This document shows, piece after piece, positions 3,135 to 36,977 of a DNA stretch of 64,000 nucleotides; position 1 is the first letter of the stretch, and every line of letters starts with the position of its first letter. The notes under the pieces are model-generated. The model was not told the DNA's origin and ran no database searches. It saw only the letters and a list, made by a program, of their open reading frames with translations. The position numbers and the translations under genes are program-made. Source of the stretch: Bacteroidota bacterium (GTDB lineage Bacteria > Bacteroidota > Bacteroidia > Chitinophagales > UBA10324); contig BJGQ01000004.1 of assembly GCA_014190575.1 (NCBI GenBank), forward strand, positions 1 through 64,000. The letters run 5' to 3'.

Positions 3135-3162
3135 CTGCCTACTGCCTACTGCCTACTGATTT
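3135..3162. repeat. Heptad array, unit CTGCCTA
   Basis: Three exact tandem copies of CTGCCTA followed by CTGATTT, between the convergent aroK and MmcQ-like genes. The array runs into the 3' end of the MmcQ-like gene and supplies its last codons and TAG stop. Related arrays with a CTGnnnA core are at 28243, 31714 and 32299. Confidence 0.85.
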
Positions 3163-28152: not shown

Positions 28153-28159
28153 TTATGAT

Positions 28160-28194
28160 TTAGCTGTTAGCGATTAGCACTTAGCAATTAGGAA
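28160..28194. repeat. Heptad array, unit TTAGCnn
   Basis: Five consecutive 7-bp units, each beginning TTAGC (the last TTAGG), with two variable bases. The array is located just upstream of the periplasmic-binding lipoprotein gene, on its promoter side. Confidence 0.85.
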
Positions 28195-28242: not shown

Positions 28243-28277
28243 CTGCCTACTGCGTACTGAAAACTGCCTTCTGAAAT
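28243..28277. repeat. Heptad array, CTGnnnA core, abutting the guaA stop
   Basis: Five 7-bp units beginning CTG: CTGCCTA, CTGCGTA, then CTGAAAA, CTGCCTT and CTGAAAT. The last base overlaps the guaA stop codon (on the complement). Confidence 0.85.
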
Positions 28278-29917: not shown

Positions 29918-30132
29918 TTTCGCACGGAGGCACGGTGAGCACGGTGAAAAAATACAAGCTCCGTGAAATCTGTATCGGAGTTTATCCCGATGAAGTTGGG
30001 GTGCGAAATGCAGCGGAGTATGTTTCAAACATAAATCACTGATCCCAAGGAGAACCAGCGAATACAATTTTTTTTATGAAAGTTAGAAGTTGAATTTGTA
30101 AAACTCCTTGTGCTCCGTGCCTCCGTGCGAAA
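29918..30132. repeat. Inverted repeat with CTCCGTGC-type units
   Basis: Arms of 18 identical bases (29918-29935 and, reversed, 30115-30132; TTTCGCACGGAGGCACGG). Each arm continues into further 8-9 bp CACGGTGA or CTCCGTGC units. The arms are separated by ~180 bases, too far for a simple hairpin terminator. Confidence 0.8.
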
Positions 30133-30795: not shown

Positions 30796-31266
30796 CTAAA
30801 CCCCAAACTGTACAAAGTGATAATCACAATGAACATATACCCATCGTCCCCACTGCGTTTTATTCATACGACCAAATAACGGATGCTTGGTAGGGAATGA
30901 ATTTGTATTCCGTAGCTGATTAAATTTTTGAACGAATAATTCTTTTTCTTTTTCAAAACTTTCTACTGATAATTTATTCCTCACAATATCCATTTCCTTA
31001 AAAGTGCGAAGTGGTTTCTTATTTAATTTTTTTATGGAAGGTCGCATATTTAAAAAAGTCATCCACCGAAAAACGGTGCGCGATACTAACCTGCTTTTGT
31101 CAGGAAGAATAATTTCTCCCAATGCAATTTGATTTGCCATTGTTAAATGATGCAACATTTGCGATGGATTCATCACACCAAATAATCCAACTGAATCATT
31201 TGATAGTTGATTCAATCGTTTCAATATTTCTTCCTTCTCAACCGAATCAAAAATTGTTTTCATCAA
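30796..31266 (-). CDS. DUF1569 domain protein
   Basis: A 156-residue protein of the DUF1569 family, related to the DinB four-helix superfamily. Family marks are MNPSQMLHHLTMANQIALG (with the metal-type His pair) and the C-terminal HPLFGRMNKTQWGRWVYVHCDYHFVQFGV region with further His residues. DinB-like proteins bind metals or act as thiol-dependent transferases, but for DUF1569 no substrate is established. The start MMK or the second Met cannot be separated. It lies convergent with the PH-domain gene, with 5 bases between the stops. Confidence 0.85.
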   Translation of the reverse strand: MMKTIFDSVEKEEILKRLNQLSNDSVGLFGVMNPSQMLHHLTMANQIALGEIILPDKSRLVSRTVFRWMTFLNMRPSIKKLNKKPLRTFKEMDIVRNKLSVESFEKEKELFVQKFNQLRNTNSFPTKHPLFGRMNKTQWGRWVYVHCDYHFVQFGV

Positions 31267-31293
31267 AAAATATTTTTCATTAATTAATTTTCA

Positions 31294-31357
31294 AATTGAA
31301 TAATTGAACAATAGAACAATTGAATATTAGAACATTTGAACAAATCAACCAATAAAT
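31294..31357. repeat. Octad array, unit AATTGAAC (GTTCAATT on the other strand)
   Basis: Eight consecutive 8-bp units such as AATTGAAT and AATTGAAC, degenerate but with an unbroken 8-bp phase, filling the gap between queD and the DUF1569 gene. It shares its unit with the array at 32180. Confidence 0.85.
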
Positions 31358-31713
31358 TAACTACCTTCATAAACCGCCCCCGAAGTCGGCGTTTCATTCA
31401 ATTCAATTTTCTTCAGCATCGGAAGTTCAGGTTTTATCTGATTCCAAAGCCAAATAGTAATCATCTCGCAAGTCGGGTTTTCCAATCCCGCAATATTGTT
31501 TAATAATTTATGATCTATGCTGTCAATGATTGGCGCAATCACTTTTTTTATTTCCGAAAAATCCATCACCCATTCCAATTCCGGAATAGGATTTCCTTCC
31601 AGATAAACCACCAACCGATAAGTGTGCCCGTGAATTTCGCGACACTTATGTTCAGGAGGAACTTTCGGAAGAAAATGTGCAGAGTCGAAAGAGAATTGTT
31701 TAAAAATCAGCAT
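31357..31713 (-). CDS. queD: 6-carboxy-5,6,7,8-tetrahydropterin synthase (QueD/PTPS family)
   Basis: Zinc enzyme that makes 6-carboxytetrahydropterin from dihydroneopterin triphosphate for queuosine synthesis. The zinc ligands are His13 (DSAHFL), His28 and His30 (CREIHGHTY); the catalytic Cys is Cys24. The WVMDFSEIK segment, DHKLLN and the final NETPTSGAVYEG substrate-binding motif are all present. Length 118 residues is normal. Other que genes are not in the window. The gap upstream is entirely a heptad array. Confidence 0.92.
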   Translation of the reverse strand: MLIFKQFSFDSAHFLPKVPPEHKCREIHGHTYRLVVYLEGNPIPELEWVMDFSEIKKVIAPIIDSIDHKLLNNIAGLENPTCEMITIWLWNQIKPELPMLKKIELNETPTSGAVYEGS

Positions 31714-31755
31714 GAGTCAGTAGTCAGTAGGCAGTTTTCAGTAGGCAGTATGCAG
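31714..31755. repeat. Heptad array, core CTGnnnA, filling the osmC-queD gap
   Basis: Six consecutive 7-bp units ending in CAG on the plus strand (TAGGCAG and TAGTCAG variants), i.e. CTGCCTA-type on the minus strand. The array starts at the base after the queD start codon and ends 6 bases before the osmC stop. Confidence 0.88.
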
Positions 31756-31761
31756 TTTTTT

Positions 31762-32172
31762 TTATACCAGACTTGCTTCCAAAGTAACAGTGCAAGAAAG
31801 TGATTTACTGATTGGGCATGTTGCTCTTGCTTCTTCAGCTATCGCTGCAAATTGATCAGAAGTGCATCCTACAATTTTTGCTTTCACCACTAAATGAGAA
31901 TTAATGATTGCACCGTTTTCAAGATCAACAGTACATGTGGTTTCTAATGAATCAGATTTCAATCCTGCTTTCTCAGTCAGAAAACTAAGTTTAATAGAAT
32001 AACATCCGGCATGAGCCGCAGCAATTAATTCTTCCGGATTTGAACCGGCGGCATTTTCAAATCGTGTGGCCCAGGTGTATGGTAAATTTTTTACCAGATT
32101 ACTTTGAGTAGTTAAACTTCCTGTACCTTCTTTCCCTGTTCCTGTCCAAAGGGCTGTTGCGTTTCTTTTCAT
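31762..32172 (-). CDS. osmC: OsmC family peroxiredoxin
   Basis: Organic-hydroperoxide-detoxifying OsmC/Ohr-fold protein (136 residues, cytoplasmic). The peroxidatic Cys lies in AAAHAGCYSIKLSF (~Cys57) and the second in ATCPISKSLSC (~Cys119). The GTNPEEL-type motif reads GSNPEELIAA, and the N-terminal MKRNATALWTG segment is typical of OsmC rather than Ohr. The gene lies upstream of queD with the repeat array between. There is no obvious functional link with queD. Confidence 0.9.
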   Translation of the reverse strand: MKRNATALWTGTGKEGTGSLTTQSNLVKNLPYTWATRFENAAGSNPEELIAAAHAGCYSIKLSFLTEKAGLKSDSLETTCTVDLENGAIINSHLVVKAKIVGCTSDQFAAIAEEARATCPISKSLSCTVTLEASLV

Positions 32173-32179
32173 TTTATTA

Positions 32180-32259
32180 GTTGATTGGTTTATTAGTTTA
32201 TTGGTTCATTGGTTGATTAGTTCATTTGTTCAAATGTTCTATTATTCAAATGTTCATCG
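32180..32259. repeat. Octad array, units GTTTATTA to GTTCAAAT, upstream of osmC
   Basis: Ten consecutive 8-bp units, each starting GTT (one ATT), in unbroken 8-bp phase. The unit drifts from GTTnATTn at the osmC end to GTTCAAAT at the other end. Confidence 0.88.
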
Positions 32260-32298
32260 GTAATCACATGGTGCTTTGTAGATTTTGAGATAGCAAAA

Positions 32299-32333
32299 CT
32301 GCCAACTGCTTACTTCAAACTGCCTGCTGTTAA
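32299..32333. repeat. Heptad array, core CTGnnnA, upstream of rpsO
   Basis: Five 7-bp units beginning CTG (one CTT), e.g. CTGCCAA and CTGCCTG. It lies 26 bases before the -33 element of rpsO. Confidence 0.8.
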
Positions 32334-35282: not shown

Positions 35283-35298
35283 AATGTATATTGTGCCA

Positions 35299-35883
35299 AT
35301 GCAACAAAAAATATTTTCAAAAAACGGGAGTATAATTTTATGCATGCTCGTTAGTTATTGTACTGCAGTTGTTCAATCAGCAAAAGCACAAACTACCCGA
35401 CCCAACATTGTTATTATTCTTACTGATGATATGGTGTATCATTCATTATCAATTAACACCAATGATCCATTAATTCAAACACCCAATATTGACAGAATAG
35501 GGGAGGAGGGCGCCGATATAAAATATTACTGTACCAACTCATTGTGTGTGCCAGGTAGGGCATCGTTGTTAAGTGGTAAATACGGGCATACAACAGGCGC
35601 CGTAAACAATGCAAATTATCCGCCTGATTCGTTGGTTACACTGCCAAAAATTTTGCACGCAAAAGGATATCATACCGCGCTTATTGGAAAATGGATGATG
35701 GGAAACTGGAATCCGAAACCTGAATTTGATTATTGGCTGGCCAGTCATAATCAAACAACTTATTATAATGATTCGTGTAACTATTCATGGGTGCATATAC
35801 CGGTAAATGAGCACATGACAGATTTTGAAACCGATAGTGCGCTCGCACTCATAAGCAGAATTGATACACCTTTTTTATTCTGA
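35299..35883 (+). pseudogene. Sulfatase, 5' fragment of a broken gene
   Basis: N-terminal ~195 residues of a secreted arylsulfatase-type enzyme (alkaline phosphatase fold). Signal peptide, then RPNIVIILTDDM with the two metal-binding Asp residues, then CVPGRASLLSGK. This last is the CxPxR site where Cys is converted to formylglycine, with Gly in place of the usual Ser. GYHTALIGKW is the second sulfatase signature. The frame ends in TGA at 35881. Adding one T to the T6 run at 35871-35876 continues the family sequence (FILISYNAPHLPFVP), but that frame meets a TAA at 35919. Two independent lesions make this a probable pseudogene. The ATG at 35299 is preferred over 35284 because of the promoter. 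Confidence 0.8.
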
Positions 35884-35936: not shown

Positions 35937-36977
35937 ATGTTTGATACCTGTGATTTTGAAGTGCCGCAAAATTTTGAACGGTATACAATAAACTACCCGT
36001 CGTTTTTATATTCGTATGGATACAATATTCCATCAGAAAATATATACCAATATCAAAAGAGAAAATACAGTGAATTGTTTAAAGGAGTTGATATAAGTAC
36101 AGGTAAAATATATCAGTCACTGCAGGCACTGGGATTATTGGATAACACGATGTTGATTTTTACGACTGATAATTCAAACCTGATTGGCGAACACGGGTTG
36201 TTTTCAAAACTCCATCCGTATGATGAGTGTATGCACCTGCCGCTATTAATCAGGTATCCACCATGGTATCTTCCAGGAACAATTATGAATTCAAATTTTT
36301 TGTTGAATATAGATATTACCCCAACCATACTTGATGTAGCTGGTATTACTGATTCTTTCGGAATGGAAGGAACATCAGCAAGACAATTTGCAAATGGAAC
36401 AAAATGGAGAAAAGCATTTTTATATGAACAATATGCTGATTCCAATGAAAGTCCATTTACAGTTAAAACTTTCAGAGATGAATTTTTTCAATACAACCAA
36501 TATTTCTGTTACGATACAACAGAGGAACTGTTTGATATGATAACAGACCCATTGCAAAAAACAAATTTAGTGCATCACTCTAAATACCTGGATACGCTTA
36601 CCGATTATCGGATAAAACTTGATAGTTTAAGATCGTTGGAAGGAGATACAGTTTTTATTCCGCTTACTCCATGTTATTTGTTAAATCCATCTTTTCCACT
36701 CACGGGTTCTGTTTTCAATAATCAACTATTAATTGAACCTGATTTTTTTATTTATCCCAATCCTGTAAATAATTTTTTAACCATATTTTGTAATCAATCA
36801 AATAGTTATTTTGAAATAAAGGATATTCTGGGAAGAACACTTTCGCATTTTACAATGACTCGTTATGATTCAGGTAAAAAAATTATTGATGTATCAGGTT
36901 TATGCAATGGAAATTATTTTATTGAGGGCAGTTCAATAAAACCGTATCGTATAAAAAAATTTATTGTGGTAAAATAA
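35937..36977 (+). pseudogene. Sulfatase, 3' fragment with T9SS sorting domain
   Basis: Continues the sulfatase in the frame entered after the T6 frameshift. The stretch just after the TAA at 35919 (IQYNGMFD) plus the ATG-initiated part reads as uninterrupted family sequence: LPQNF-like VPQNFERY, IYQSLQALGLLDNTMLIFTTDN, then GEHGLFSKLHPYDECMHLPLL, the C-terminal metal-site region, and DITPTILDVAGI. A T9SS sorting domain ends the protein (FFIYPNPVNNFLTI, IKDILGRTLS, LCNGNYFIEG). Without the N-terminus it has no signal peptide or active-site Cys and would be non-functional. No sulfatase-maturing enzyme is in the window. Confidence 0.8.

Follow-up and report, generated by a model that had tools for sequence, protein, structure and literature searches.

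Intergenic ACTG heptad arrays and their polarity towards coding edges in a bacterial draft genome

The spacer between osmC and queD (31714-31761) consists almost entirely of 7-bp units that keep their phase and a common core but differ from one another in the remaining bases; 43 of its 48 bp belong to the array. The question raised by this locus is what such arrays are, how they are placed with respect to genes, and which process could write and maintain them. The core was found to be ACTG each 7 bp, followed by three variable bases.

Arrays of the window and neighbouring genes

The window is G000:C4:1-64000, the whole stretch of 64,000 nucleotides that was analysed, from a Bacteroidota draft genome of 3.19 Mb in 91 contigs. 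Genes were called mechanically as long open reading frames, so that stop codons are firm and start codons approximate (Table 1). The first-pass annotation had described four arrays in 7-bp phase, and all four were recovered. The unbroken phase it ascribed to them holds at 3135, 28243 and 31714, whereas the array at 32298 carries one CTT core. Accordingly, runs of at least three CTG at period 7 occur in the window only in the first three; at other periods only two runs were found, both at period 12 and explained by chance. No structured RNA matched above the Rfam gathering score within the window.

Table 1. Coordinates of arrays and neighbouring genes in the window
Feature	Position	Strand	Details
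ACTG-type heptad array	3135..3158	+	CTGCCTA x3 + CTG (4 CTG)
YjbR family, PF04237	3146-3490	-	Pfam
Companion heptad array, other word (GCTAANN on minus)	28153..28193	-	enters start of minus-strand periplasmic-binding-protein-like gene
ACTG-type array	28243..28273	+	5 CTG; following tetramers CCTA, CGTA, AAAA, CCTT
GMP synthase (guaA)	28277 onward	-	Pfam
DUF1569	30796-31266		Pfam
Octad array, AATTGAAC type	31286..31356	+	adjoins queD stop codon
PTPS/QueD	31357-31713		Pfam
ACTG-type array, 6 units (6 CTG)	31714..31756	-	osmC-queD spacer
OsmC	31762-32172		Pfam
Octad array, on minus ..AACCAATAAACTAATAAA..	32166..32256	-	enters osmC start codon
ACTG-type array, one decayed core (CTTCAAA)	32298..32329	+	4 CTG + one CTT; upstream of next gene

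The annotation's statements that the osmC-queD gap is filled and that arrays touch stop codons also agree with what we found. In the osmC-queD spacer the ACTG strand enters the queD start codon, with the osmC stop codon about 5 bp away, and the minus-strand stop codon of guaA lies 3 bp from the end of its array. At 3135..3158 the array runs with its 3' end into that of the minus-strand YjbR-family gene, and the stop codon of this gene (3146-3148, minus) is inside the array. The encoded protein ends in SLPKKKISRQ* in G000 versus SLPKKKKN* in the congener G003; the array has replaced the end of the gene and overwritten its native stop codon.

The arrays are unevenly shared among the congeners. 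That beside guaA, where the GCTAANN and ACTG arrays together fill most of the spacer, is also present in G002 and G004 and missing from G001, G003 and G005. The osmC-queD array is missing from the same three genomes; it has five units in G004 compared to six in G000, and its triplets differ in G002. At the 32298..32329 locus, G002 has an array of different composition and G001, G003, G004 and G005 have none.

Two other features of these spacers were seen. In G004 (L145), to judge by sequence alone, a PIN-domain toxin/antitoxin-like pair seems to be inserted directly beside the ACTG array of the osmC-queD spacer. A further short-repeat family, of the GCACGGAGA type with its inverse CTCCGTGC, is found at 29922-29947 and 30113-30128 in the region upstream of guaA.

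Period 7, its words and the heptanucleotide class

The annotation had named an excess of lag-7 self-similarity in intergenic DNA over shuffled controls as the check on its observation. We sampled 1.66 Mb of the 3.19 Mb genome as stretches, with an intergenic portion of 193 kb, and counted clusters with at least 15 of 21 self-matches against dinucleotide shuffles. The excess is present, with 109 lag-7 clusters versus 16.8 in shuffles (maximum 25). Clusters were also in excess at the multiples of seven (81 versus 12 at lag 14, 37 versus 8 at lag 21) and at lag 8 (43 versus 14), while at lags 5, 6 and 9-12 their counts in this intergenic DNA were at or under the shuffled expectation. In a tetramer scan ACTG stood out among the cores not made up of A and T alone, with 13 chains of at least three units at period 7 and none at periods 5, 6 or 8-12. 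The pattern CTGCCTACTGCCTACTG, with at most two mismatches, matched 37 sites in the genome and its reversed control none. GTCANNN, the reversed control for ACTG arrays, is itself abundant as a word in other genomes.

The CTGnnnA heptad singled out by the annotation is thus real, but merely one of several heptad words in the genome. Arrays are also built of GCTAANN/TTAGCNN, ATTATCA/CAATTGT, TTTTCAC, ATTCACT, GAACTTT and AACYCGA, and octad words such as AACCAATA are present in arrays as well. Among same-genus genomes G000, G002, G004 and G005 are rich in ACTG arrays, while G001 and G003 have almost none; G003 carries other heptad words at a similar density. ACTG arrays are likewise patchy across the phylum, even inside one genus. 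In a scan of genome contigs, the matches listed included cyanobacteria, Beggiatoaceae, Chloroflexi, Planctomycetes and Acidobacteria, among others.

Although the annotation knew of no named family with these properties, heptanucleotide repeats have been described several times, as LSSRs, as STRRs, as TAACTGA repeats (PMC4679880) and as GGGAATC repeats (PMC4692102). A literature search with the array sequence as a string returned unrelated papers only. The STRR1 word CCCCAGT and the STRR3 word CAACAGT both contain CAGT. To our knowledge, neither polarity nor the behaviour of core and triplet has been described for STRRs or LSSRs. Insofar as papers citing the originals describe them, LSSR heptanucleotides (Mrazek 2007) and the STRRs of cyanobacteria, e.g. 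those of Calothrix, are intergenic heptanucleotide repeats that resemble the present arrays in their location in spacers, in the several words per genome and in the patchy taxonomy. The features of that class, a 7-bp excess over shuffled sequence, several words and a patchy distribution between relatives, were all found here. Thus the arrays very probably belong to a widespread class of bacterial intergenic heptanucleotides, of which they are a variant with the tetramer ACTG fixed and the triplet free.

There is also a likeness to the P6b stems of the Nostoc tRNA-Leu intron, whose seven-base motifs (TDNGATT, NNTGAGT) also have free positions, change in length by 7 or 14 nt and shift between motif classes (PMC4476775). 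Unlike the present arrays, the P6b arms form an intron stem away from gene edges.

A second dispersed repeat (CTTCGACAAG-CTCAGCATGACA / TGTCATTCTGA..CTTGTCGAAG) occurs beside the heptad arrays in G002, with sites in the osmC-rpsO spacer (L142) and in array-neighbouring spacers (L211, L238).

Polarity towards coding edges

The main regularity, absent from the first-pass annotation, is the polarity of the arrays with respect to coding edges. An array end was scored as near when at most 12 bp separated it from a coding edge, separately for the 3' and the 5' end of the ACTG strand. Among 45 ACTG arrays from three genomes of the genus, 27 had the 3' end near an edge and 3 the 5' end, with about 7.9 expected for either end under uniform placement. 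After removal of orthologues of the window loci the counts were 21 versus 2 (n = 39). Arrays facing the stop codon of an opposite-strand gene had gaps of -13 to 12 in 22 of 25 cases; those facing a same-strand start codon had gaps of 4-26 in 11 of 20, a subset that is not significant alone.

The rule is common to several words. When all lag-7 words of the three genomes were oriented by C over G, 49 versus 9 of 89 arrays were near an edge by the respective ends (p = 3e-6 for the nearer side), and 57 of 75 followed the polarity after ACTG words were left out. Outside the genus, ACTG arrays gave 34 versus 8 of 66, with 11.5 expected (p = 1e-4). Lag-8 arrays lean the same way (20/32), not significantly. 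In arrays oriented to coding sequence C amounts to ~19% and G to ~9%; a C-containing, G-poor strand runs 5' to 3' into the nearest coding edge.

Closeness to coding sequence is partly due to short spacers, and abutment itself was set aside as evidence (39 versus 35, weak under a lenient null that permits overlaps); the strand asymmetry alone clearly exceeds what short spacers give. A general base skew at gene edges was rejected as the cause, with array-free spacers showing no C/G skew after stops and no ACTG/CAGT bias. Arrays showed no strong preference among convergent, tandem and divergent spacers, on which ground a terminator or promoter role was rejected, and triplet usage did not differ between stop-side and start-side arrays (p = 0.30), which together argue against a stop-codon or a promoter/terminator function. 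The supply of stop codons in all frames, as a selected property, was likewise dismissed: triplets show no difference between the two sides and three-frame stops are rare.

Polarity has already been published for G-rich heptamers and, in part, for TAACTGA. The GGGAATC and GGGGA(C/T)T heptamers of Xanthomonas and Nostoc, reported in 2015, are dispersed in spacers, overlap stop codons, form convergent inverted pairs and neighbour no particular functional class, and, whichever way the nearest ORF is read, their G-strand points outward from it; the study considered a quadruplex role (PMC4692102). The present arrays share with them the 7-bp unit, in which some positions are fixed and others vary, and the outward G-strand. 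All these likenesses, including the stop-codon overlap and the inverted pairs, would speak for an explanation by G-quadruplex formation, as proposed for those heptamers. However, their G-runs are quadruplex-capable, whereas CAGTNNN lacks a GGG tract, has a near-free triplet and is accompanied by other words in one genome. Quadruplexes therefore cannot be the common cause of polarity, and we give this reading practically no weight for the arrays themselves. For decades heptamer repeats have been described one by one and under various names, each with an explanation of its own (quadruplexes, translational control, slippage); that one polarity rule extends over different words and phyla, including words without G-runs, suggests a common cause other than quadruplexes.

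TAACTGA repeats, reported in 2015 from marine Beggiatoaceae, cyanobacteria and some Bacteroidetes, mostly face start codons and in a minority stop codons; related heptamers were rare (PMC4679880). TAACTGA is ACTG plus the triplet ATA in 7-bp phase, and is likewise oriented to start or stop codons. It is one fixed heptamer, however, whereas the G000 arrays use about 20 triplets, CCT being the commonest and ATA absent; unlike TAACTGA repeats, the present arrays are as common on the stop side as on the start side.

The polarity bears on the possibility that the arrays are a selected element, in which a protein or RNA-binding factor reads ACTG at 7-base intervals, marking or insulating the edges of genes or acting in 5' leaders in the way suggested for TAACTGA repeats (PMC4679880). 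This fits the core conservation between congeners, the polarity kept across phyla and the TAACTGA sets of BOGUAY, of which 147 of 170 point towards a start codon and 12 towards a stop codon (PMC4679880 Table 1). Yet words with other cores follow the same rule and take the place of ACTG in one and the same spacer. The arrays are also not conserved among congeners, with almost none in G001 and G003, starts and stops carry opposite sequences on the sense strand, and no spacer type is strongly favoured. We consider such an element unlikely, though it is the chief rival of the re-copying set out below.

With arrays on both edges of a spacer, the polarity rule yields inverted CAGT...ACTG pairs. Such a pair might represent the complete form of a mobile or recombining element dispersed in the genome, akin to REPs or MITEs or spreading by conversion from array to array. 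In favour, inverted pairs flank short loops in G000 and G024, 8 of 13 pairs in one spacer are outward, and gains are lineage-specific. But the arms of a pair can have different triplets and even belong to different words (e.g. on C8 of G000), and are therefore not copies of a single palindrome; array lengths vary as well, and counts of the Y1 transposase (PF01797), the one mobile-element gene tested, do not track array content. A mobile element is accordingly quite improbable. The specific pairing of REP with a RAYT transposase was rejected because most arrays are single and non-palindromic and the PF01797 distribution does not fit. At the flanks no common array ends were found; the spacers compared for target duplication were highly diverged.

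Unit variation, gain and a proposed re-copying

The annotation had held that fixed phase with drifting units is unlike microsatellite slippage, and the units bear this out. In G000, neighbouring triplets were identical in 3 cases versus 8.8 expected from within-array shuffles (p = 0.001); their mean similarity was low in all three genomes compared, while units two apart were more alike than in the shuffles. In a small, hand-made alignment of congener units, from arrays ascertained via cores in at least one genome, the CTG core differed at 3 of 87 sites (3%) and the triplet at 21 of 87 (24%; p = 1e-4). Two or three triplet bases were changed together in 7 of the 29 aligned units.

Replication slippage of heptanucleotides followed by neutral drift, with period 7 set by the polymerase, was proposed by Mrazek, according to PMC4679880 and PMC4692102. 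Orthologous arrays that differ by one unit in copy number are in line with it, as are the near-identical units in arrays of G158 and of cyanobacteria, the lag-2 similarity and 14-bp periodic runs such as the CCT/CTT alternation in G024; a 14-bp duplication would explain the lag-2 similarity. Plain 7-bp slippage nevertheless fails, since neighbouring triplets are less alike than chance in three of three genomes. Moreover, drift is mostly restricted to the triplet, the same tetramer turns up at dozens of loci and in many phyla, and no polarity is predicted. We regard slippage with drift as improbable.

Two variants of such arrays were seen elsewhere. Long ACTG arrays of L304 (Planctomycetaceae) and L361 (Bacteroidia) have triplets alternating CCC/CCG and AAG/AAA, pointing to duplication of 14 instead of 7 bp. 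G158 has very long GTCACYY arrays with C/T variation only (C43:53681-53936 and C52:36208-36449), related to the heptad class but closer to what slippage would give.

Comparison of orthologous spacers gave the direction of change. Spacers with an array in G000 and none in G003 were a median of 43 bp longer (n = 8), in contrast to a median difference of -1 bp for array-free pairs (n = 56). The arrays are thus lineage-specific gains of spacer DNA, not products of decay. The guaA spacer measures 124 bp in three genomes, where a GCTAA and an ACTG array occupy opposite ends, versus 16-54 bp with neither array in the other three. Different words can take one orthologous spacer: 3' of queD, octads are found in G000 and G003, an ACTG heptad array in G002 and G004 and no array in G005, and AGTGAAT versus ACTG and ATTATC versus ACTG replace each other in further spacers.

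Copying of whole arrays between loci was rejected. Three-unit words common to different arrays numbered 26 versus 13.5 expected (maximum 36), which is no clear excess and weakens the case for exchange between loci.

Our best overall explanation, which we favour tentatively, combines class membership with polar, phase-keeping re-copying by ordinary replication and repair; the re-copying itself is plausible at a somewhat lower level of confidence. Arrays would grow and be rewritten inside spacers during gap-filling or repair synthesis, when a 3' end uses the tetramer core to re-anneal with a neighbouring unit or with another array and then copies on. The core would be retained because it serves as the annealing register, and the triplet would be swapped in blocks; purifying selection on a putative binding site could equally account for core conservation. 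The CAGTNNN strand would grow outward from the gene; put the other way round, the ACTG strand would advance onto its edge until halted by selection on coding sequence. A dedicated function would be unnecessary, and local effects on expression secondary.

The outward polarity of the G-strand resembles 3'-end repeat addition, and this telomere-like feature prompted us to consider repeat addition based on reverse transcriptase or Ku. Neither reverse transcriptase (PF00078) nor Ku (PF02735) was detected in any of the eight genomes tested, which come from the genus and the order. This candidate was therefore rejected; with it the best-known routes to repeat addition in end repair are removed and ordinary replication and repair polymerases are favoured. 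A long shot is a dedicated process that in many phyla writes 7-base units, in which the tetramer is fixed and the triplet free, along gene edges in a telomere-like orientation with the G-bearing strand outward, switches the word between species and keeps the site, without reverse transcriptase or Ku.

To the published descriptions the present analysis adds the dissimilarity of neighbouring triplets, the contrast between core and triplet, gains with word replacement, and polarity across words and phyla. Why seven, and why beside genes, can now be tested through strain-level comparisons.

Elsewhere in the window, the ORFs at 35284-35883 and 35937-36977 adjoin on the same strand and look like halves of one sulfatase-like gene, split possibly by a frameshift or a stop.
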